Shown here: piece after piece, positions 8,710 through 47,327 of the stretch
Numbering within the stretch: the stretch's first letter is position 1
Layout of the letters: each line of letters begins with the position of its first letter
NCBI RefSeq assembly: GCF_040581405.1
Contig: NZ_CP137157.1
Coordinates: 748,001 to 812,000 of the forward strand
Length of the DNA stretch: 64,000 nt
Direction of reading: 5' to 3'
DNA from: Komagataeibacter sucrofermentans DSM 15973
Lineage (GTDB): Bacteria; Pseudomonadota; Alphaproteobacteria; Acetobacterales; Acetobacteraceae
The notes under the pieces: generated by a model
What the model saw: the letters and a program-made list of their open reading frames with translations, nothing else
What the model was told of the DNA's origin: nothing
The model's database searches: none
Position numbers and translations under genes: made by a program

Positions 8710-9261
8710 GTGCTCGAACAGCGCCATGTTCAGGCACTGATCTGCGCTCCTTGTTTTTGAGGGCGTCTGCGCGGTGTTGATGCGTTCGCGATAACGATGC
8801 AATAAGGCCTCCGCAAACAGGCAGTTGTCTGCAGCGGTGCCGCCAACATGCCCGTCCTGACCGGAAAAAGGTTTTTGTATCGGTTCTTAGCGGGCATCCC
8901 GCAAATCATATCGCTGCATCAGTCCGTTCTCCCCAAAGCTGGTGAAACACGCTGCACACGCATCAAAAAAGCGTAACCTTCAAATACGCCACCGCTAACC
9001 GGGGACACGCCGCAGCGTGCGCTGGCGGAGTAGGCAGGGTTCCGTTATTGCCCTGCACCTTGTCTCATCCACACCCGAGATGAGCATATCGCGCTGGTCA
9101 ATAGCGGGAATAGTAAGGTCTACATATATAAATTTGGATTACATAATTTTACAAATTAAAAATAATTTCTCCTGCTTGTGGGATCTAATTTCCTTATGAT
9201 AAATAAAAGTACGTTTATAAAAAAATTATATTCATGAAAACAAAGGGGGGTGTGTATAATA
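8710..9261 (+). other. Long intergenic region, GC-rich then abruptly AT-rich
   Basis: No gene with protein-like sequence is visible on either strand. The first ~400 bases keep the ordinary GC content of the chromosome but contain only short frames. From about 9110 composition shifts sharply to A/T (for example ATATATAAATTTGG), leading into the transferase gene at 9262. The segment looks like the left junction of an acquired island. I found no recognisable integrase, insertion-sequence end or duplicated target. Confidence 0.6.
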
Positions 9262-10860
9262 ATGAATCTTGTTATTTTAACTAAACATATAAAAAACTTA
9301 ATAAGTGATAAAAGTAATATTTACATATTTTCTTTTTCCATCTTATTCTATTTCATTAACAAGCATGTGTCCCATCATGATGGATCGTATAAACCTATTC
9401 ATTTTGAAGATAAATATATTTTATTAATTTGTTTTCTTGCGGCAATGGGGAAAGTTGTTTCGTCAATAACGGTCCCATTAATTGTTATTTTTAGCTTACT
9501 TTATTACTATACCTCTTTGAGATATGGTCTTGTTACAAAATCCATGATGCAGGCTATCGCTGGCACGAATATTCATCAGGCATTATCGATGATGACCTCG
9601 GTTAATATATTAATGCCATTTGTTATCGTGGTTTTTGTTGCATTGCTGGTTTTTATAACATGGAAATGTAACCGCTTTCGTCCGTTGCTTCTGCTCGTTT
9701 CCATGTTAAGTATGGTTCATCCCTTATATTATGCATGGGAAAACGGTACAAGCATAAATAAAGAACGGAATAGGCACAATATTGTCGAGAGAGCCTATTA
9801 CCTCAAGCGGTTTATACCTGGCATCCTTGGGGAACTGATCTATTCGGTAGGCATGTGGTGTAGTCAGGAAAACCGTCCAGCCGTACCCCATACTAAAATA
9901 GATCCGGCAGTAATCGGTAAAAATGAGGGACGACGCAAAAACATTATTATGGTCATAGGGGAAAGCGCTTTTGCCAGTCGTCATACATATTATGGCTACA
10001 AAGCCGAGAATACGACCCCGAACATGCAGAAACTGATAAATGACAACAGGATATGTGTCCTGCCACACACTCATTCTGCCGCCAACATGACGCGCGAGGC
10101 CGTACCCATGCTCGTGTCATTTTTTGAGCCAGAGCATCAAGAGAAACTCTATTCAGAAAAGAATATCATCGAACTTGCCAAAGATAATGGTTACAAAACA
10201 TTCTGGATTGCCTCTCAGCCAGGGCGGGGTGAATATTCGCGAACCTTTGGATATATTTCTGAATTCAGTGATTATGTAACGCGGCAAGACTATAATAACG
10301 CTGTCAGTCATGTGACGTGGCGAGATGAATCCCTGTTGCCTGTAGTAAAGGAAAAATTTGGCGAGCAGGTTGATAAAAAGTTTTTTGTCATACATCTCAT
10401 GGGTAGTCATGAGAGCTACGCCGATGACCGCACGCAGGAAGATATAGACAGCCTGCCTCATGCCGATCCGTATGATCAGAGCATTCACCGGACAGACCGG
10501 ATCCTGCAGCAGATCATTGATATGGCGGATAAAAAACTGGGTGAATACACACTCATCTATATATCCGACCATGGTGAAATTGTTAATCAGGGGCATGGCA
10601 TACAGTTTGGTGGCTATGACCAATATATGATTCCGGCATTCATAATAGATAAAAATAATGAATATTGTAAAACAGCCAACGACATGCGTAATTATGAAAA
10701 TTACTATACGTCTCTTTTCACAAAATATCTGGTTCTCGACATGCTGGGCTATAATGTAGATTCAAAATACATTGAACATATCAAAAGTAATGATGTTGTT
10801 TTGCATTCTGATGGGGAAGTATATAACTACAAGGATATACCTCAGCCACCGGCTCATTAA
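9262..10860 (+). CDS. Phosphoethanolamine transferase-like membrane protein (sulfatase fold)
   Basis: A 532-residue protein with about five N-terminal membrane segments (residues ~20-155) and a C-terminal alkaline-phosphatase/sulfatase-fold domain. The nucleophile motif is IMVIGESAFASRH, with Ser (about residue 235) where EptA/MCR enzymes have Thr. A downstream GYKAENTTPN and the metal ligands in YISDHGEIV agree with the family, which transfers phosphoethanolamine from phosphatidylethanolamine to lipid A, core sugars or glucans. GGGGGG lies 11 bases upstream of the ATG. Codon use is AT-rich and Asn/Lys/Ile-rich, unlike every neighbour, so the gene is probably horizontally acquired. A related sulfatase or OpgE/EptC-type role is possible; the acceptor cannot be told. 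Confidence 0.85.
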   Translation: MNLVILTKHIKNLISDKSNIYIFSFSILFYFINKHVSHHDGSYKPIHFEDKYILLICFLAAMGKVVSSITVPLIVIFSLLYYYTSLRYGLVTKSMMQAIAGTNIHQALSMMTSVNILMPFVIVVFVALLVFITWKCNRFRPLLLLVSMLSMVHPLYYAWENGTSINKERNRHNIVERAYYLKRFIPGILGELIYSVGMWCSQENRPAVPHTKIDPAVIGKNEGRRKNIIMVIGESAFASRHTYYGYKAENTTPNMQKLINDNRICVLPHTHSAANMTREAVPMLVSFFEPEHQEKLYSEKNIIELAKDNGYKTFWIASQPGRGEYSRTFGYISEFSDYVTRQDYNNAVSHVTWRDESLLPVVKEKFGEQVDKKFFVIHLMGSHESYADDRTQEDIDSLPHADPYDQSIHRTDRILQQIIDMADKKLGEYTLIYISDHGEIVNQGHGIQFGGYDQYMIPAFIIDKNNEYCKTANDMRNYENYYTSLFTKYLVLDMLGYNVDSKYIEHIKSNDVVLHSDGEVYNYKDIPQPPAH

Positions 10861-10900
10861 TTATTCGATCATCGAAAATAATAGGCTATATTTTTTTTCT

Positions 10901-10929
10901 CACTGTAGGCGCTTGGTGCGCCTACAGTG
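10901..10929 (+). terminator. Perfect 12-bp hairpin after the transferase gene
   Basis: CACTGTAGGCGC and GCGCCTACAGTG form a perfect 12-bp stem with the loop TTGGT, 40 bases after the transferase stop. It is preceded, not followed, by a run of eight T, so it is not a textbook Rho-independent terminator in either direction. A transcript-end or boundary structure is the likeliest role. Confidence 0.5.
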
Positions 10930-11039
10930 GAAGCTATTCGTTATTTAGGTATGTAAGATTGTATATTATAGAGTGATTTTACAATCGTCATAATCCGCGA
11001 TGACGGATTGAAGTGAATTGCACAGCATGTTTCCGGCCC

Positions 11040-39420: not shown

Positions 39421-39472
39421 GCACCATCGCGCGGGGCAATCCCGCGCGGCATGGACGAAAGGCAGGTTGCGT

Positions 39473-40324
39473 ATGAAGACGGTCACTTTCCCCAACGGCA
39501 CCACCGTCCCGGCCCTTGGCATGGGCACATGGAACATGGGGGACAGCGACAGCCGCCGCGCGGATGAAATAAAAAGCATCCATGCAGGGCTTGAGGCCGG
39601 TATCCGCGTTGTCGACACCGCCGAGATGTACGGCTCCGGCCGATCGGAAAAACTGGTGGGCGAGGCGATACGCGGGCGGCGTGATGATGTGTTCCTGGTC
39701 AGCAAGGTGCTGCCCTCAAACGCATCGCGCAAGGGCGTGCGCCGCGCGTGCGAGGCCTCGCTCAAGCGGCTGGGCACCGAATACCTCGACCTCTACCTGC
39801 TGCACTGGGAGGGCAGTGAGCCGCTGGAGGAAACCATAGCAGGCTTTGATGATCTGGTGGCAGCGGACCTGATCGGCAGTTGGGGCGTTTCCAATTTCGA
39901 TACCGACGCCATGCGTGAGGTGGAAAGCATAAAGGCCACCACGCCGTGCGCCACCAATCAGGTGCTGTACAGCCTTGACTACCGTGGCGCGGAATTCGAC
40001 CTGCTGGCGCGTGACCGTGAAGCGGGGATCGTGACCATGGCTTATTCGCCATTAGGGCAGGGCGGCGACCTGCTGCGCGCGCCGGTGCTTGGCCGGGTGG
40101 CTGCACGGCACAAGACCTCGCTCGGCCCGGCAAGCCCCGCCCAGATTGCGCTCGCCTGGGTGCTGCGGCAGGAGAACGTGCTGGCCATACCCAAGGCAGG
40201 TAGCCCGAAGCACCAGCATGAAAACTTTGCCGCAACCGAAATCACTTTGACGCGCGACGATCTTGCCGAGATCGACGCCGCCATTGCCCCGCCGCGCCGC
40301 AAGGAAGCGCTGGCCATGATCTGA
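39473..40324 (+). CDS. Aldo/keto reductase, YeaE-like
   Basis: A 283-residue NAD(P)H-dependent carbonyl reductase. The AKR tetrad regions are visible: Asp and Tyr in VVDTAEMYGSGRSEKLVGEA, Lys in LVSKVLPSN, His in YLLHWEGSEP. The closing cofactor segment is LAIPKAGSPKHQHENFAA. Similarity to E. coli YeaE (methylglyoxal reductase) is strong by eye. The ATG at 39473 has AGGCAGG 8 bases upstream; a TTG two codons earlier is less likely. A decayed copy of its last codons lies at ~41000-41106. Confidence 0.9.
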   Translation: MKTVTFPNGTTVPALGMGTWNMGDSDSRRADEIKSIHAGLEAGIRVVDTAEMYGSGRSEKLVGEAIRGRRDDVFLVSKVLPSNASRKGVRRACEASLKRLGTEYLDLYLLHWEGSEPLEETIAGFDDLVAADLIGSWGVSNFDTDAMREVESIKATTPCATNQVLYSLDYRGAEFDLLARDREAGIVTMAYSPLGQGGDLLRAPVLGRVAARHKTSLGPASPAQIALAWVLRQENVLAIPKAGSPKHQHENFAATEITLTRDDLAEIDAAIAPPRRKEALAMI

Positions 40325-40350
40325 CAGGGTAGTAGGTCTGGATAAACAAA

Positions 40351-40385
40351 AAACGCCGTCTTTACTTTAGTTAAAGGCGGCGTTT
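40351..40385. terminator. Bidirectional terminator hairpin
   Basis: AAACGCCGTCTTTA and TTAAAGGCGGCGTTT form a 14-bp stem (one G-T pair) with a 6-base loop, followed by AT-rich sequence in both directions. It sits between the convergent aldo/keto reductase and lipoprotein genes. Confidence 0.85.
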
Positions 40386-40437
40386 GAAAATTTTATTTAG
40401 TGCTATATTTTATCATAAGTGAGCGTGATGACCGGTT

Positions 40438-40710
40438 TTATTGGTCCGGCGCAATCCATTGCTTCTTGTCATCCTGCCTAAAAAACTGAACACGCTCATC
40501 AGTGGCCTGATTGGGGAACTGCATGACAACACGGCATTTGAAAGTTTTCTTGTTCTCGTCAGCGAAGGCGCAATCCCTGACTTCGGTCACGGTGGGTTTG
40601 TCATAGCTGAATTTCTGATTGATATACTCCTGCGCGACCTGCTTTAGGTCCTGTGGCTCAGGGGCTTTGTCACCACAGGCGGAAAGGGCGATAACCGGGA
40701 GCGCAAACAT
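40438..40710 (-). CDS. Small putative lipoprotein
   Basis: A 90-residue protein of unknown function. A lipobox LSAC-G follows a very short hydrophobic stretch (FALPVIALSACGDK), suggesting export and lipidation. The mature part is charged (KTFKCRVVMQFPNQATDERV) with a second and third cysteine that could pair. The signal is only 12 residues from the ATG and no ribosome site is seen. A 12-bp imperfect hairpin (40711-40741) abuts the ATG, so either the start is elsewhere or translation is structure-controlled. Convergent with the aldo/keto reductase. Confidence 0.6.
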   Translation of the reverse strand: MFALPVIALSACGDKAPEPQDLKQVAQEYINQKFSYDKPTVTEVRDCAFADENKKTFKCRVVMQFPNQATDERVQFFRQDDKKQWIAPDQ

Positions 40711-40741
40711 AAGGCTGTACAGATCGTGCCTGCACAGCCTT
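40711..40741 (-). promoter_or_regulatory. Hairpin abutting the lipoprotein start codon
   Basis: AAGGCTGTACAG (40711-40722) pairs with CTGCACAGCCTT (40730-40741) with one mismatch and a 7-base loop. On the reverse strand the stem ends at the base before the ATG, where a ribosome site would be. Confidence 0.4.
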
Positions 40742-40999
40742 ATGCTTATGCCATTGCGGGTTGTATCAGTAGTTTCTGCTTTTCATCGCGGAGACGGTGA
40801 TGATGATCGCGGTCAGGGTGCAGACATAGAAACCGAACCCCAATGATTCGGTATCGTGGCCGGGCGGGCCTATGCGGGCGTGGCATGTGCCTGCTTTAGA
40901 GACTGGTACCGATGGGGGCGATTTCCCGCCATGCGTGGGTCGCCCTGCCGTGGCGGGACGGAGCCGCATGACATGATGGCCGGTCAGCGTGCTGCCCGC

Positions 41000-41106
41000 A
41001 TGAAACCGCCAGCGCAACCGCGATCATCTTGACGCGCGATGGTCTGGCGGAGATTGATGGAGCATCGCGCCGCCGCGCCGCAAGGGGACCGCCGGCCATG
41101 ATCTGA
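41000..41106 (+). pseudogene. Degenerate 3' fragment of an aldo/keto reductase gene
   Basis: The segment reads LTRDGLAEIDGASRRRAARG then PPAMI-stop. The intact reductase ends LTRDDLAEIDAAIAPPRRKE then ALAMI-stop, 24 residues in each case. DNA similarity extends upstream (GCATGAAA, GCAACCG before it), and small indels shift the frame inside CGCCGCGCCGCAAGG. No upstream body of the gene is left. It appears to be a decayed partial duplicate lying about 780 bases after the original, directly before the hydrogenase-like operon. The 40742-40999 stretch between holds no gene I can support. Confidence 0.7.
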
Positions 41107-41146
41107 TCCACCCGGCCAGCCGGGAGCAAGCCGGAGGGCCATCATC

Positions 41147-42910
41147 ATTCCTGTCATCCTTGTCGTTGCCCTGCTTGTGGTGGGGCTGGCAACTGCTTTG
41201 TGCGTCGGTCTGCCGGGGCAGGCGCGCTGGGCAAGGCCCGTGCGGGCGGCGGGCTGGCTGGTGGTGTGCGGCATGGCCATGGCCTGTTCGCACCGGTGTG
41301 CCCTGCCCGGTGGGGTGGTGGCATGGCCGGGCGTTTTTGCTGGCGGCCCCGATGTGATGCTGCTGGTGCCGCTCGGGCTTGTCGCAGCCCTGGCCCGCAT
41401 CCCGCGTGACTGCTCGGCCAGCCTTGGCGCGGCCCTTGCGGTAATCGGGGGGGGCGTCGTGTCATCCATCGGGGCGGGGTGGGTCCTGCTGGCGCTGTGC
41501 CGCACGCCACAGGCAGGCAGGCGGCACGCGCCCGACATGATTGCCCTGCTGCTGGTGGCGGCGGGCAGTCGGTTTCCCGGTCAGGTCGGTTACCTGCTGC
41601 CCGGTCTGTGCTGGCTGGCCACGCAGGGGCTGCTGGGGCTTTCGCTCTCCCTGCGGGTGGCCCCGCGTGGCCTGCGACCGTTCCACATGGCCGATATCGC
41701 CGCGATGATCGCCGCCATGAGCCTGTGGGCGCGCCTGCCCGCGGGCACGGCGGTGGCCGACATGCGCTGGGGCGGCGTGCTGATCGTGGCGGGGTGCCTG
41801 TTTTACATGACTGCCTCGTGGCGGGCGCTGCGGGCCCCTGACGCGCGCCGGGTCATGACCGGGCTGGCGGGCGGCACGGGGGCCATCATCATCACGCTCG
41901 CGGGCCTCATGCTGCTGGCGCGGGCCGATGACCTGCCCGGCATGGCCAGTTGCGCCCAGCGCACCTATTTGCTGGTTGCGGGCCTGCTGCTTGCTGGCGT
42001 GCTGGCCGTCCGGGCGCTTGATGTGATGGAGCGCGAGGCGGGCGCGCTCTTGCTGTTCAGGCTGGGCGGGCTCGGGGTGCTCATGCCGCGCCTGTCCGCG
42101 CTGTTTGCCCTGGCGCTGCTGGCCGAAAGCGGGCTGCCGCCGCTGCTGGGGTTTTCCATTATCTGGATGCTGCTGCGCTTGCTGGCCTCCATGCCGCATG
42201 CGGGCGGGCTGGCGGGCGAGGTGCCGCTGCTGCTCGCGCTGGCCGTGCTGGGCGTGGGCTGGGCGGTGCGCATGCTCGCCCTTGTGCGCATTGTCGCGGT
42301 CATGCTGTGTGGCAGGCCGCGCACGCCACGCGGCGCGGGGGCGGCTGATCCACCCGTGCGTGAGCAATGGGCTGTGCTGGGGGCGGGGCTGCCGATCATG
42401 CTGGTTTCCATCTGGCCGGGCTGGTGGCTGGCATTGATGCAGGGCGCTGACGCGCAGGTGGCCAGCGCATGGCCGCACCTTGCCGCCGTTGCCCTGACCG
42501 CGCCCGATGGGGGCGCAGCGCTGCATCCCGCCCGCCTGTGCCTGTTTGCAGCGCTGGTGGGGGCCGTGGTGGCGGTGGTGCGTCGGCTGGCCCGCCGGCC
42601 GCCTGCGCGGCAGGTGGCAGGGTGGCAGCAGGGCGCGCCCGTGGTGCCGCCGTGGATGGTGTTTGGCGATCCGCTCACGCAGGTCGGGCCGGGCAACCCC
42701 GCGCGCATGCTGCTTGATATGGCTGTGGCCGCACCGGCGCGGCGGCGCTTCGTGCGTGATTACGCGCACGGCCTGCTGCTGGCGCGCAGGCTCATGCGAT
42801 CGGGCACAGGCCGCGTGGCAGATGCTGGCTGCTGGCGGCGGGTGCCGGGGGCGGTGGTGCTGGTGGTGGCCTGCGTTCTCGCCCTCATGTTCATAGCGTG
42901 GCAGGGGTAG
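41147..42910 (+). CDS. Hydrogenase-4-like subunit B (antiporter-like membrane protein, lysine-free)
   Basis: About 587 residues, highly hydrophobic with a dozen or more predicted helices. Assignment as HyfB/NuoL-N-like rests on gene order, size and GLPPLLGFSIIWMLLR, which resembles the conserved GLPPxxGF helix break. The expected proton-channel motif (Lys in a helix before PxHxWLP) is missing and the whole chain contains no lysine. No ATG/GTG/TTG fits the ribosome site: GGAGGG at 41133-41138 is followed 8 bases later by ATT (41147) or ATC (41141/41144), which would complete a first helix IIPVILVVALLVVGLATAL; GTG at 41177 is the first conventional start. First gene of the operon. Confidence 0.72.
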   Translation: MPVILVVALLVVGLATALCVGLPGQARWARPVRAAGWLVVCGMAMACSHRCALPGGVVAWPGVFAGGPDVMLLVPLGLVAALARIPRDCSASLGAALAVIGGGVVSSIGAGWVLLALCRTPQAGRRHAPDMIALLLVAAGSRFPGQVGYLLPGLCWLATQGLLGLSLSLRVAPRGLRPFHMADIAAMIAAMSLWARLPAGTAVADMRWGGVLIVAGCLFYMTASWRALRAPDARRVMTGLAGGTGAIIITLAGLMLLARADDLPGMASCAQRTYLLVAGLLLAGVLAVRALDVMEREAGALLLFRLGGLGVLMPRLSALFALALLAESGLPPLLGFSIIWMLLRLLASMPHAGGLAGEVPLLLALAVLGVGWAVRMLALVRIVAVMLCGRPRTPRGAGAADPPVREQWAVLGAGLPIMLVSIWPGWWLALMQGADAQVASAWPHLAAVALTAPDGGAALHPARLCLFAALVGAVVAVVRRLARRPPARQVAGWQQGAPVVPPWMVFGDPLTQVGPGNPARMLLDMAVAAPARRRFVRDYAHGLLLARRLMRSGTGRVADAGCWRRVPGAVVLVVACVLALMFIAWQG

Positions 42911-42915
42911 GGGTG

Positions 42916-43878
42916 ATGCCGTTCCTTGTCGCGCACATGCAGACGCTGTTGCTGGCGGGCTGGCATATGGCGCTGGTTGCGCTGATGGCTCCGGTCTGGA
43001 TTGCCCTGCTGCGCTGGATGGCGACCTGCATGGAAGGCGAGCGCCGCCCGCCAGACCCGCTGGCCCACTGGCGCGTGCTGCGCCATGCGTGGCGGCAGGC
43101 GGGCGTGCGCTCGGCGGCGGGCGCGCAGGTTACGGCGGTCGCCCCCTGGCTGGGTCTTGCGGCGGCGCTGGCCGCGGCAGGGCTGGTGCCATCATTTTGC
43201 ATTGGCCTGCCCGGCAGTGACCTGTCGGACCTGCTGATCGTGGGTGGCCTGCTGGAGATGGCGTTTCTGGCCCTTGTGGTCACGGCCCTTGCGGCGGGGC
43301 TGGCCCGTCCCGGCCATGCCGGGCTGAAGGCGGCGTGCATGGGCATCATGATCCAGCCCGTGCTGCTGCTGGTGTGCGTGGTGCTGGGGCTGTGCCTGCC
43401 CGATGGCACGCTGGCGGGGCTGGTGCGGCAGGCGCATGTGGCGGATATGAACGTGGTGCGCGTGCCGCTGGCGCTGGTGGCGGCGGCACTGGTGCTGGCG
43501 GGAGTGGAGGAAAGCGATGGCGCGGCATTACGCCTGTTTGCCACCATGCTGGAGGATCTGGCAGGCCCCGACCGCGCGGTGGCGCTGTATGCGCGTGACC
43601 TGCTGGCGGTGGTGTGGATGATGCTGGCGCGTGATCTGGTCTGGCCTGAAGGGGTCGTGGAGCCCGATCTCATGGCCCGCTCCTGGCGGGGCATGTCGCT
43701 GCTGGGGGCGATGGGGCTATGGGCCGCGCACATGCTGCTGGCCTGCGGGTGCGTTGCGGGGCTGCGGGTGTTCGTGGTCTCGGCGGGCAGGCGGCATGCG
43801 GGCTGGCGGGCCGGGCTTGCCCTGTTATGCGCCCTGATGGCCGGGGTGCTGCTGTTTGCGGGCCGGGGGGCGGATTGA
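42916..43878 (+). CDS. Hydrogenase-4-like subunit C (NuoH/HycD-like membrane protein)
   Basis: 320 residues with about eight helices. The segment RRPPDPLAHWRVLRHAWRQA (~residues 42-61) aligns with the HyfC/NuoH cytoplasmic loop (RRGPxxWQDYRDIxKLFKxQ). LAGVEESDGAALRLFATMLE aligns with the region carrying the acidic DxAEAExEL loop that contacts the quinone/hydrogenase module, but with fewer acids. These subunits couple redox change to ion movement in complex I relatives. AGGGGT lies just before the ATG, 5 bases after the subunit B stop. Confidence 0.75.
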   Translation: MPFLVAHMQTLLLAGWHMALVALMAPVWIALLRWMATCMEGERRPPDPLAHWRVLRHAWRQAGVRSAAGAQVTAVAPWLGLAAALAAAGLVPSFCIGLPGSDLSDLLIVGGLLEMAFLALVVTALAAGLARPGHAGLKAACMGIMIQPVLLLVCVVLGLCLPDGTLAGLVRQAHVADMNVVRVPLALVAAALVLAGVEESDGAALRLFATMLEDLAGPDRAVALYARDLLAVVWMMLARDLVWPEGVVEPDLMARSWRGMSLLGAMGLWAAHMLLACGCVAGLRVFVVSAGRRHAGWRAGLALLCALMAGVLLFAGRGAD

Positions 43879-43880
43879 GC

Positions 43881-44426
43881 ATGCTTGTGCTGTTGCTGGG
43901 CATGGTGGTGATCCTGTCGCTTTCCGGCTCCGGGGGGCGGGGCGGCGGCCTTGCCTGGCATGCGGGCTTGGCTGCGGCATGCGTGGGGCTGTGGCAATGG
44001 GCGCAGGGCAGCGTGGGGGTAACCTGCCTTTTGGCGGTGGTGCAGGCGGGGCTGGTCGGGCTGCTGGGTTTGCAGATGCTGTACGGCCAGACAGGCCCGC
44101 GTGAGCGCAGCGGCCTGCGCCTTGCGGGTGGGCTGGCCTGTGTTGCGGTGCTGGCGCAGGTGATCGTACCCGGCATGCCCGGTGGCATGACGGCGCGGCT
44201 CATGGGGCTGGCGGGATTATCCGCCATTGTGTGCGGGGTGTGGGGGGCGTGCATCGCCCGCGCGCCTGCCGCCCTGTGCGCGGGGCTGGCATGTGGGCTT
44301 GATGGCGTGATGCTGCTGGCGGGGCTGGCCGATAGCCCGCTGGTCATGACGGAAACGCTCGTGGCGGCAGCAGTCCTGAACCTCGTGCTGCTGCGCACGC
44401 GCCGCTCCGTTGGGGCAGCGCCATGA
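43881..44426 (+). CDS. Hydrogenase-4-like subunit E (HyfE/NuoK-like membrane protein)
   Basis: 181 residues, almost entirely hydrophobic with about six helices and no lysine. The closing segment LACGLDGVMLLAGLADSPLV resembles the ENGxxLxLAxLA region of HyfE. It starts 2 bases after subunit C and overlaps subunit F by 4 bases (ATGA). Identification depends mainly on its place between C- and F-like genes and on size. Confidence 0.65.
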   Translation: MLVLLLGMVVILSLSGSGGRGGGLAWHAGLAAACVGLWQWAQGSVGVTCLLAVVQAGLVGLLGLQMLYGQTGPRERSGLRLAGGLACVAVLAQVIVPGMPGGMTARLMGLAGLSAIVCGVWGACIARAPAALCAGLACGLDGVMLLAGLADSPLVMTETLVAAAVLNLVLLRTRRSVGAAP

Positions 44427-45487
44427 TGTCTCCTGCGCTTTTCATCAGTCTGGTGGCGGGCTGGATGGTGCTTGCGGTCATGGCCCTGCTGGCAACCGGC
44501 AGCCCCAGGGCGTTGCGTGGCCTGCTGGCCATGCTGCTTTTAGGGTTATGCGCCGTTGGCTGCCAGCCCGCCCATACTCTGGCGCAGGCGCTGATGCTGG
44601 CCTGTCCGGCGCTGGCTCTGTGCGTGCGTATTTTCATGCCGGGAACTGCCGTGCGGGCGGCAGGCCGCATGGCGGGGCTTGAGCCCTTCATCCTGTCGGC
44701 CAATGCAACGCTGGCCCTGGCCTGCGGGCGGTGCGACCTGCTGGTCATGTTCATCGGGCTGGGGCTTGGCCTGCATCTGGCTTGTGGCAGGCACGGCGAC
44801 TGGGGCGCGCTGCGTGTGGGGCTGGGCGGGCTGGTCATGGCGCAGGGCGGGCTGTTCGTGCTGCAGGCCGGGTGGGGCGCGCGGCAGGAGCAGGCCGGTG
44901 CCGTGCTGCTGGCGGGCGGGTTGCTGCTGGCCTGTGGCGTGCTGTCGGGCAGCGTGCGCGAGCAGGCGCTGGCGGACAGGCAGATGGCGCTGCTGGCCAC
45001 AATGCCGGTGCTGGCGCAGGCGGCGATAGTGTGGCCAGCCCTTCGGGCCGCGCTGACCTTTCTGGGCTGCGTGTGCCTGCTGTGGTCGCTACGGCCCCGG
45101 CCTCGCGCCCTTTCAGGCGGCATGGGCTGGTCGGGCTGGGTCGTGCTGGCCGCAGGGTTGCCTCCCGCCACGGCATGCCTGCCGCTTGCAGCCTGTCTGC
45201 TGGCGCTGGCCTGTGGCGGTGGAGCCGGGCGCGGGGTCGTGGCTCTGCGCCTGTTATGGCCGCCCTTTCTGCCGGGGGTGGCGCTGGCCCTCGTGCTGCT
45301 GGCCGAGATGGCGGCCATGCCGGAGGTAGCCCTGCTGGCCGGAGCCTGCCTGTGGCCTGTGTTCACCAGCGCGCCTTCTGCCGTGGCAGAGTCGGCCCCG
45401 GTTGCATGGGCGCGGGCAGGTCTGGCGCTGGTATTGGGCTGCATGGTGCTGGCTCTGGCCCTGCGTGGCGGGATGGTGCTGGCATGA
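44423..45487 (+). CDS. Hydrogenase-4-like subunit F (antiporter-like, shortened, lysine-free)
   Basis: 354 residues with about ten hydrophobic helices. It takes the position of HyfF, a NuoN-like antiporter subunit of ~500 residues, but is much shorter and has no lysine, so the usual lysine/glutamate proton path is not present. Recognisable pieces are few (GLEPFILSANATLALACGRC; WLVL-like breaks around GLPPATACLPLAACLL). It overlaps both neighbours by 4 bases (ATGA at each end). A wholly different membrane role is possible. Confidence 0.6.
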   Translation: MMSPALFISLVAGWMVLAVMALLATGSPRALRGLLAMLLLGLCAVGCQPAHTLAQALMLACPALALCVRIFMPGTAVRAAGRMAGLEPFILSANATLALACGRCDLLVMFIGLGLGLHLACGRHGDWGALRVGLGGLVMAQGGLFVLQAGWGARQEQAGAVLLAGGLLLACGVLSGSVREQALADRQMALLATMPVLAQAAIVWPALRAALTFLGCVCLLWSLRPRPRALSGGMGWSGWVVLAAGLPPATACLPLAACLLALACGGGAGRGVVALRLLWPPFLPGVALALVLLAEMAAMPEVALLAGACLWPVFTSAPSAVAESAPVAWARAGLALVLGCMVLALALRGGMVLA

Positions 45488-46884
45488 GCGCGGATGTCGC
45501 AGCCCTTATCCGCCAAGGCAGCCCCACGCCCTGCGCCGGGCGCTTTGTGCTTGAAGGTGAGGCGTGGCAGGCCATGATCGCGGGGTTGCCCGATGCGGAC
45601 TTGCCCCTGCTGGGGCTATGGGCTGATGGCGTGCAGGTGCATGCCCTGTTTCGCCATGACCAGACACCGCTGGTTGCCAGTGTTGTGGTATCACCCGGGG
45701 GCTATCCGGCCCTGTCGCCCGTGTGTGGGGGGGCGGGGGCACCAGAGCGCATCATCCATGATTTGTGGGGCATTCCGGCTATTGGCGGCAGGCGCGATCC
45801 CTGGCTGGATCAGGGTCGATGGCCCGTGGCAACCCCTCTGGCGACCCATCCCGCCCCCACGCCCGGCCTGCCGGAGGGACAGGAATTCACCGACAGCGCG
45901 ACGGTGATGCAGGCAGGCGGCACGGTGCTGGGTTATGGCCCGGCGGAAGGGGATTTCCGTGCTCCATTCCATCTACGGCTCGGCCTGCCGGGCGAGCGCA
46001 TCGTGGAGGTGCAGTCCTGCATGGGCTATGCGCATCGCGGGCTGGCCGCGCGGCTGCGGGGGCTTGCGCCAGAGCAGGCCGGGCGGCTTGTGGCCCGGAT
46101 TGATGCGACCGCAACCGTGGCGCACCAACTGGCTTTTGCCCGTGCCCTGTACAACGCGACTGGCAACCCCATGCCCGCGCGGACCGTGGCGGCAGGCGTG
46201 ATGCTGGGCGCTGTGGAACGGATTGCCACCCATCTGGATGTGCTGGCGCAGGTCAGCGCGATGCTGGGCGATGGACGCAGCGCCACCCTGGCCGCCACCA
46301 TGCTGGAGCAGGTGCGGCAGGCCTGCAAAAATATGTGCGGCCGACGCCTGCTGTTTGATGTCATTCCGCCCGCAGAAGCCCTGCCAGTACGTGTGGATGA
46401 CGCGCAGCTTGCCTCGCTGGCGGCGCAGCATGCGGCCCTGCACCGGCTGTTCTGGCGGCCGCGTGGCCTTGCGGCGCAGGCACGTGGCAAGGGCGTGGTG
46501 TCCGCCGCAACGGCTGCCTGCTGGGGCATCATGGGCTGTAACGCGCGGGGGGCGGAAAGGGGGCAGGGTGATATGACCGCCCGGCTTGATACCCGCCTGA
46601 GCGAGATCGGGGAAAGCCTGTCCCTGCTTGCAGCCCTGCCTGAAGCCCACATGATGGAGGCTGAAAGAGGAAAGGGAGAAGGTCTGGGCTGGGCCGAAGG
46701 CCCGGCAGGTCCGGTCTGGCACTGGGTGCGGCTGGAGGCAGGGCATGTTGCCGCCTGGTGGTGTGGCGACCCGTCGCTGGCGCTGGCGCAGGCATTGCCC
46801 GCGATCCTGTCTGGCGCGGCTTATGAGGATGTTGAGCTGATTCTGGTCTCGCTGGGCCTGTCAGCCGCCGGGGCGGATCTGTAA
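45484..46884 (+). CDS. Hydrogenase-4-like large subunit G (NuoC-NuoD-like) lacking NiFe cysteines
   Basis: 466 residues: a NuoC-like N-terminal domain (~1-140, IIHDLWGIPAIGGRRDPWLD) fused to a NuoD/hydrogenase large-subunit domain, as in HyfG. EVQSCMGYAHRGLAARL and VAHQLAFARALYNATGNPMP match the family. The first NiFe motif (R-x-C-G-x-C) is replaced by ARIDATATVAHQ, and the C-terminal DPCxxC is replaced by SLGLSAAGADL, so it cannot hold a NiFe site. This is the character of energy-converting-hydrogenase-related (Ehr) complexes and of NuoD. The His of AHRG near the quinone/active-site cavity is kept. Start overlaps F (ATGA); stop overlaps I (TAATG). Confidence 0.82.
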   Translation: MSADVAALIRQGSPTPCAGRFVLEGEAWQAMIAGLPDADLPLLGLWADGVQVHALFRHDQTPLVASVVVSPGGYPALSPVCGGAGAPERIIHDLWGIPAIGGRRDPWLDQGRWPVATPLATHPAPTPGLPEGQEFTDSATVMQAGGTVLGYGPAEGDFRAPFHLRLGLPGERIVEVQSCMGYAHRGLAARLRGLAPEQAGRLVARIDATATVAHQLAFARALYNATGNPMPARTVAAGVMLGAVERIATHLDVLAQVSAMLGDGRSATLAATMLEQVRQACKNMCGRRLLFDVIPPAEALPVRVDDAQLASLAAQHAALHRLFWRPRGLAAQARGKGVVSAATAACWGIMGCNARGAERGQGDMTARLDTRLSEIGESLSLLAALPEAHMMEAERGKGEGLGWAEGPAGPVWHWVRLEAGHVAAWWCGDPSLALAQALPAILSGAAYEDVELILVSLGLSAAGADL

Positions 46885-47327
46885 TGGCGCAGATGCACCT
46901 GTTCTGGCCCGAAGGCACGCCGTTGCCGCGGCTTGAGGCGCTGGACATCTTTCATATCGAAAGCGGTGGCTGCACCGGTTGCGCGCTTGAGCTGGCCAGC
47001 CTGTCGCGGGCGTTGCTGGCGGGCAATCACCCCATCCGCTTCGTGCCCACCCCACGGCAGGCGGGCATGCTGCTGCTGACCGGCAGTCTGACAGTAGGCA
47101 TGGCGCCTGTGGTTGAACTGGCGTGGCAGGCCATGCCCGGCCCGCGCGTGCTGGCCGTGATCGGGGATTGTGCGGTGGATGGGGGGCTGTTTGGCGGCAA
47201 TTATGCCGTATTTGGTGGCGTGGGCGTGCGGGCGCGCAGCAGCGTGTCGCTGCCCGGATGCCCCCCTGCGCCAGATGAAATCCTCGCCTCCCTCGTGCGC
47301 TGGCAGGCGAGTATTAAGGAAACATAA
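46884..47327 (+). CDS. Hydrogenase-4-like small subunit I (NuoB-like, [4Fe-4S])
   Basis: 147 residues of the NuoB/HyfI family, which carries the iron-sulfur cluster nearest the active site (N2 in complex I). All four cluster cysteines are visible: two in ESGGCTGCALELAS (~residues 30-36), one in AVIGDCAVDGG (~96) and one in LPGCPPAPDEIL (~128). Compact compared with ~250 residues in HyfI, closer to the NuoB core. Last gene of the six-gene run; no ferredoxin-like HyfA/HyfH or maturation gene is in the window. Confidence 0.85.
   Translation: MAQMHLFWPEGTPLPRLEALDIFHIESGGCTGCALELASLSRALLAGNHPIRFVPTPRQAGMLLLTGSLTVGMAPVVELAWQAMPGPRVLAVIGDCAVDGGLFGGNYAVFGGVGVRARSSVSLPGCPPAPDEILASLVRWQASIKET

Follow-up and report, generated by a model that had tools for sequence, protein, structure and literature searches.

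Within a 64,000-nucleotide stretch of Komagataeibacter sucrofermentans DSM 15973 (contig NZ_CP137157.1, positions 748,001 to 812,000 of the forward strand; here called the window), an operon of six open, tightly packed genes in the order B-C-E-F-G-I (41147-47327, + strand; host genome 3.44 Mb) is predicted to encode an energy-converting-hydrogenase-related (Ehr) complex, that is, a NiFe-free complex resembling the group 4 hydrogenases. A sequence-only reading of the locus had recognized the six tightly spaced genes in hyf order and their kinship with Ehr complexes, and both points stand, the latter on subunit homology and the absence of NiFe cysteines. It had also treated loss of the NiFe ligands as the distinguishing trait; this part fell, and erosion of the membrane arm had been overlooked. 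Judged from alignments with related loci, it is this erosion, together with a shortened F subunit and changed His and Glu residues in a loop of the large subunit G, that sets the operon apart, not NiFe loss.

The large subunit reads RIDATATVAHQ where Escherichia coli HyfG has RVCGICGFAH, and SLGLSAAGADL where HyfG has SLDPCYSCTD. All four NiFe Cys are thus absent, as had been noticed from the sequence, and the alignment revealed no NiFe-type Cys pair elsewhere in G. Searches of the whole genome gave no match at E ≤ 0.001 to HypD (PF01924) or to the NiFe large subunit (PF00374), and no HyfH/HyfA-type ferredoxin gene lies within the operon, in agreement with the earlier remark that ferredoxin and maturation genes are missing nearby. 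A NiFe hydrogenase is ruled out by the missing RxCGxC and DPCxxC motifs and HypD. Cys was found at the four NiFe positions in 0/91 related rows of the alignment, some of which are unaligned at the last two positions. The loss is ancestral and common to all 91, and so is not special to this operon.

Related loci were labelled pump-type or eroded from residues of F (and B), which makes the F counts circular in part and leaves C and G as the more independent columns. Alignment gaps were scored as absent residues, and rows in which B and F were the same open reading frame (ORF) were left out of the B counts. The reference residues of E. coli HyfB are a Glu in transmembrane helix (TM) 5 and Lys in TM7, TM8 and TM12. 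All four are kept in 22 of 24 pump-type rows with B, whereas none is kept in any of 42 eroded rows, among them those of Komagataeibacter, Novacetimonas, Acetobacter and Rhodopila. The three F residues, one Glu and two Lys, all occur in 28/30 pump-type rows, and any of them in 0/35 eroded rows. The four C residues (R, E, E, E) are complete in 22/24 pump-type rows versus 0/47 eroded rows. Pump-type patterns are EKHKHK, EKHDHK and DREEEDAE; against the last of these, the window C reads AKAQEDAD, in which three ionisable residues have disappeared, two have changed conservatively and two remain. The losses go beyond Lys alone, as the entire TM7/TM8/TM12 signature of B and most of F are gone. F is also about 130 amino acids shorter than in pump-type relatives (354 versus approximately 480). 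By these comparisons the ion-translocation residues are not conserved in the membrane arm of the window operon, C being only partly affected through loss of part of the E-channel.

The loop of G at the former active site is altered too. The GPxH His is present in 29/30 pump-type rows, while in eroded rows it lies outside the six commonest letters (which cover 37/50 rows), and the loop Glu falls from 29/30 pump-type to 11/50 eroded rows. Relative to a NuoD in the same alignment (L062, with DRVDYLGG and GPNHPSVHG), Tyr is replaced by Ala in the window G and both loop His are lost; we take this Tyr and the loop His to be the complex I quinone ligands. The residue matching Glu21 of MbhL, reported to shuttle protons in that protein (PMC11228991), is Ala as well. 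Other elements persist: 50/50 eroded rows keep H-R/K-G, the RxCGxC Arg and the ExxR Arg, and 43/50 keep the ExxRxxxH His. The four cluster Cys of the small subunit I are kept in 44 of 47 eroded rows, the exceptions being one locus cut by its contig (L070) and two with Ser as the fourth Cys (L080 and L127). The CxxC spacing in I is of the hydrogenase type and not that of complex I, whose small subunit is described as having tandem Cys (PMC9474812). By sequence, the G-I pair still has a hydrogenase/quinone-module fold and four Cys for one [4Fe-4S] cluster. What the operon retains on this evidence is the cluster subunit I, its contact with G, and C; those parts lost are the NiFe site, the quinone ligands, the active-site loop and the proton path.

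Homology to Hyf and Nuo proteins is clear for G, I, B and C from profile and structure comparisons. Pfam matched B (PF00361, 22.3 bits with a cut-off of 21.5) and I (PF01058, 4.6e-19), gave only sub-threshold hits for G (PF00346 and PF00374) and no match for C, E or F; the best sub-threshold NCBIfam matches were hydrogenase 4 subunit B for B, NuoD for G and NuoB for I. A profile built from ten G sequences of the genus matched E. coli HycE (7z0s_E, 1.8e-26), Pyrococcus MbhL (6cfw_L, 2.8e-26) and Thermus Nqo4 (2fug_4, 1.5e-22) in the PDB. An AF2 model of G from 55 sequences (pLDDT 87.7, pTM 0.89) retrieved formate hydrogenlyase (FHL) HycE 7z0s_E first (E 1e-23, TMq 0.84) among 222 matches at E ≤ 0.001. 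The I profile, which itself includes E. coli HyfI and a NuoB, matched 7z0s_G at 2.1e-57, and the C profile matched HycD 7z0s_D with E 0.008. When genus profiles were compared with pump-type family profiles by hhalign, B and C each scored 99.4%, E 0.3% and F 0.1%. Only by iterating profiles over candidate ORFs chosen by position was E linked to E. coli HyfE (a 216 amino acid ORF, scoring 94 bits in the final round); its direct hhalign comparison with the HyfE-type family profile and its PDB profile search gave no match. No profile link from F to HyfF was obtained by hhalign or iterated profiles, F connecting no further than Novacetimonas. The F subunit also gave a weak AF2 model (pLDDT 56.8, pTM 0.58), whose first Foldseek matches, none of them significant, are antiporter-like subunits. 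Scores of the pump-type F profile fall from 239 bits (L105) through 132 (L056/L135), 81 (L098) and 52 (L100) to 17-18 (L088-L090), and are approximately zero or negative in Komagataeibacter, a series that fits gradual divergence from HyfF. Two findings had been named in advance as telling against the Hyf-like assignment, intact NiFe Cys elsewhere in G and proteins unrelated to Hyf/Nuo; neither emerged, four of the six proteins being clearly related.

G is present in 19/19 genus genomes (the host and 18/18 others). At E < 1e-50 it is matched in 221/249 family genomes, a hand count at a chosen threshold that may include true hydrogenases, and 28/249 have no strong match. Small genomes also keep it, for example at the Bombella/Parasaccharibacter loci L137-L138. 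The nearest named relatives of the window locus are in Komagataeibacter xylinus and K. nataicola. A tree of G and I was built from 86 rows, of which 50 are eroded, 31 pump-type (E. coli among them), three unknown and two others, with SH-aLRT support only. It needs a single change between pump-type and eroded states, and the clade uniting the eroded rows with one unknown row has support of 99. That clade contains Komagataeibacter, Novacetimonas, Acetobacter, Gluconobacter, Bombella, Endobacter, Rhodopila and Acidisphaera, and pump-type rows include Belnapia, Paracraurococcus, Dankookia and Limobrevibacterium. The inner branching order is unsure because some rows are long (L058, L060, L106). The small-subunit gene is unlinked, on another contig, in two genera (G019, Endobacter, L152; and G026, L154), and in one genome G-I is separated from a C gene.

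The positions of the genes are collected in Table 1. The sequence-only reading began the operon at 41141, where the codon is ATC; an ATT at 41147-41149 seems the best-supported start of B. It is invariant in the window and 14/14 genus loci, and most genus relatives also have a GGGAGGG or GGAGGG stretch. No in-frame upstream ATG, GTG or TTG was found for B in the window and 11/14 genus loci (L033, L034 and L035 have one), and no nearby canonical start was found in Novacetimonas and Acetobacter loci L084, L079 and L085.

Table 1. Features of the operon and its upstream region (window coordinates)
Feature	Position	Strand	Description
Aldo/keto reductase (AKR)	39467..40324	+	Upstream of the operon, directly so in many relatives; candidate partner
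GGAGGG	41133..41138	+	Ribosome-binding-like stretch, 8 nt ahead of the ATT codon of B
B	41147..42910	+	HyfB-like antiporter-type membrane subunit, 587 aa from ATT start, no Lys
C	42916..43878	+	HyfC/HycD/NuoH-like subunit, 320 aa
E	43881..44426	+	HyfE-like small membrane subunit, 181 aa
F	44423..45487	+	HyfF position, 354 aa, no Lys; assigned by position and a weak fold match
G	45484..46884	+	Large subunit (NuoC-NuoD/HyfG type) without NiFe ligands, 466 aa
I	46884..47327	+	Small subunit with four cluster Cys (CxxC, C, C), 147 aa

The complex resembles Ehr complexes of Geobacter, Riflemargulisbacteria and comammox Nitrospira, which likewise are reported to combine group-4-type subunits and membrane subunits without NiFe ligands (PMC6349859, PMC10284858, PMC7894505). 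It pairs a large subunit without NiFe Cys and a small subunit, both relatives of group 4 hydrogenases and NuoD-NuoB, with NuoH-like and antiporter-like membrane subunits recognized by profile (B, C) or iterated profile (E), F having no profile match. We take conserved ion-translocation residues as something the literature presumes of Ehr, not as a strict part of its definition. The published accounts deduce ion translocation from Mrp-like subunits, whereas the window operon has lost the translocation residues and has a shorter F and an altered active-site loop. Ehr function is stated there as unknown or as suspected charge translocation (PMC6349859, PMC10284858), and Ehr subunits were reported to be raised on formate (PMC7894505). 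Pump-type Ehr of Belnapia, Paracraurococcus and Dankookia (Acetobacteraceae/Roseomonadaceae) form the closest outgroup, with the same operon order and a NiFe-free G but with the pump-type residue patterns and the loop His and Glu kept. Like E. coli hydrogenase 4 (Hyf) and FHL-1 (7z0s), the window operon has the B-C-E-F-G-I order, the G fold and the small-subunit CxxC pattern; unlike them it lacks a NiFe site, HyfA, HyfD and HyfH, maturation genes and proton-path residues. It shares with the complex I Q-module (NuoC/D, NuoB, NuoH) the NuoC-NuoD fusion fold and, in part of the eroded clade, an RxD motif, but has RID-A instead of RxD-Y (no quinone Tyr), no GPxHPSxHG His and CxxC instead of CC. 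A copy of complex I is ruled out, as the NuoD quinone Tyr and His, the tandem Cys of NuoB and the NADH module are lacking. None of the papers listed by literature searches deals with the operon in Komagataeibacter or acetic acid bacteria, one of them treating Nuo genes on plasmids. Marreiros 2013 and Coppi 2005 may already note residue loss in some Ehr.

A separate, complete-looking NuoD/NuoB pair is encoded elsewhere in the host genome. There, nuoM (L157; G000:C1:463648-465087) lies far from the nuo operon, in which nuoN (906472) comes immediately after nuoL (904284). This separation of nuoM recurred in 9/9 genus genomes searched, five of which have a second full set as well.

The likeliest reading, though about as probable as not, is an Ehr-type complex that gave up ion pumping and persists as an uncoupled, one-cluster membrane redox module. 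A soluble one-electron donor, such as ferredoxin or flavodoxin, would dock at I and deliver its electron, and the single [4Fe-4S] cluster would hand it on, in the altered G/I/C pocket, to an acceptor that is lipid-soluble or small, with ubiquinone as a first guess. No protons would be moved, and the membrane subunits might act as an anchor and pocket wall. Changes of Lys to nonpolar residues in antiporter modules are reported to block proton conduction (PMC11496545). Several points weigh against this reading. Many of the residues counted as absent in eroded rows are alignment gaps, and C retains Glu and Asp at some E-channel positions. As several Lys and His changes in HycC of E. coli FHL are reported to be tolerated, K239A and K336A among those leaving H2 production undiminished (PMC9474812), loss of Lys need not mean loss of function; Arg or other residues could carry protons. 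Moreover, the quinone ligands are gone, so a quinone acceptor is a guess.

Lys content weighs on the same side, as it is scarce in all six proteins (five in 2055 residues), including the soluble G (3/466), and is zero across all six at L039 and L040. First and second codon positions are GC-rich in the operon (GC1 0.70-0.78; GC2 0.51-0.56, against 0.42-0.45 in the host's own NuoD/L/M/N and 0.46-0.52 in the flanks), which points to relaxed constraint under GC pressure; because this would yield the same result, Lys scarcity alone is not a specific sign. GC bias as the sole cause of Lys loss was set aside: the host's own NuoL and NuoN have 9 and 10 Lys, key Lys are kept in pump-type loci of 72% GC genomes, and operon GC3 (0.73-0.84) is not above that of comparison genes (0.76-0.84). 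Lys, Asn, Tyr and Phe are low, and GC1/GC2 indicate that drift contributes. Elsewhere in the window, positions 9001-11000 have a GC content of 0.37-0.41 (approximately 0.65 around) and may be foreign DNA.

Genus flanks are alike where the contig reaches, with LAP, holC and AKR upstream and pssA, psd and gloB downstream. The AKR gene is co-oriented just upstream in 21/42 eroded versus 2/22 pump-type loci with enough upstream sequence, many of them close relatives. In the window lineage AKR and operon stand approximately 0.8 kb apart (40325-41106). This interval contains a - strand gene for a small lipoprotein-like product (40438-40710), and the AKR 3' end occurs there a second time (approximately 41008-41106). 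In eroded loci outside the acetic acid bacteria (L082, L088-L090, L095, L096, L103, L110, L111, L125), squalene/phytoene synthase genes lie convergently downstream of I (16/75 flank proteins); acetic acid bacteria have pssA-psd there. Neighbours of pump-type loci are of mixed families, with no outstanding redox partner among the matches listed (25 of 77).

These neighbours bear on a possible, though rather less probable, function as a redox sensor or scaffold, which ranks close behind uncoupled electron transfer. The single cluster would then not serve turnover; its redox state, or a ligand in the former active-site pocket, would alter the contact made with C and with a partner such as the upstream AKR or adjoining lipid enzymes. 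No catalytic ligand set is left, AKR is enriched upstream of eroded loci, lipid genes lie downstream in both eroded groups, and the two loci with Ser for the fourth Cys would be accommodated. However, the AKR counts are dominated by close relatives, AKR is absent beside all seven Acetobacter loci, such neighbours may reflect inherited gene order, and the cluster Cys are otherwise strictly kept.

Selection on the operon speaks to slow decay, in which it would be a relic under weak residual selection, to be lost, without a distinct function. Ratios of nonsynonymous to synonymous substitution (dN/dS) between the window and the xylinus group are 0.09-0.13 for C (4 comparisons), 0.07-0.14 for I (6) and 0.16-0.33 for E (5), and 0.25-0.32 for B (4), 0.26-0.37 for G (6) and 0.31-0.45 for F (6); flanking genes give 0.02-0.17. 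Against three more distant species the values are 0.23-0.28 (C), 0.21-0.29 (I), 0.32-0.43 (B) and 0.41-0.45 (F). For pump-type pairs a cruder method, which compared whole stop-to-stop ORFs and therefore inflates the values (window C 0.27-0.28 there versus 0.10-0.13), gave approximately 0.14-0.31 (B) and 0.16-0.35 (G), one B value of 1.14 (L136/L139) being dropped as an artefact. The operon is thus under purifying selection, looser than its neighbours, with relaxed constraint visible. Fast evolution of B, F and G, an F unrecognisable by profile, compositional drift and the 28 family genomes without a strong match are what decay would produce, and a Geobacter study is reported to ascribe mutations in Ehr to relaxed selection, regarding the complex as nonfunctional (PMC13194489). 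Decay is nevertheless improbable given six ORFs open in the window and 14/14 complete genus loci, dN/dS of approximately 0.1 for C and I, and retention of G in small genomes and most of the family. A recent pseudogene is set aside on the open ORFs and dN/dS constraint, and presence of G throughout the genus, open ORFs and low dN/dS together argue that the operon is not a plain pseudogene. Least probable of all is a rewired pump, still energy-converting and moving ions via Arg, His, Asp and water chains. In its favour, B has many Arg left, some acidic residues remain in C, which is the best conserved of the membrane subunits, and FHL reportedly tolerates Lys changes (PMC9474812); against it, the losses in B and F go beyond Lys and F is truncated.

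Evolution still preserves the operon, which therefore probably serves a job nobody has described. More tentatively than the uncoupled one-cluster module itself, it may be that throughout the clade an ion pump of the complex I superfamily became a single-cluster membrane complex that is uncoupled, has its pocket rebuilt (RIDAxAxxAH) and has acquired a new function in redox chemistry or sensing, surviving relatives showing intermediate steps of dismantling. Labels such as 'hydrogenase 4' or 'energy-converting' on these genes mislead. Complex I and its kin are usually seen as machines that join redox chemistry with ion pumping. Here one family offers a natural series from pump-type to stripped complexes in which the cluster-bearing subunit is retained, making the chemistry of Ehr testable, and with it which parts of the superfamily work without coupling.

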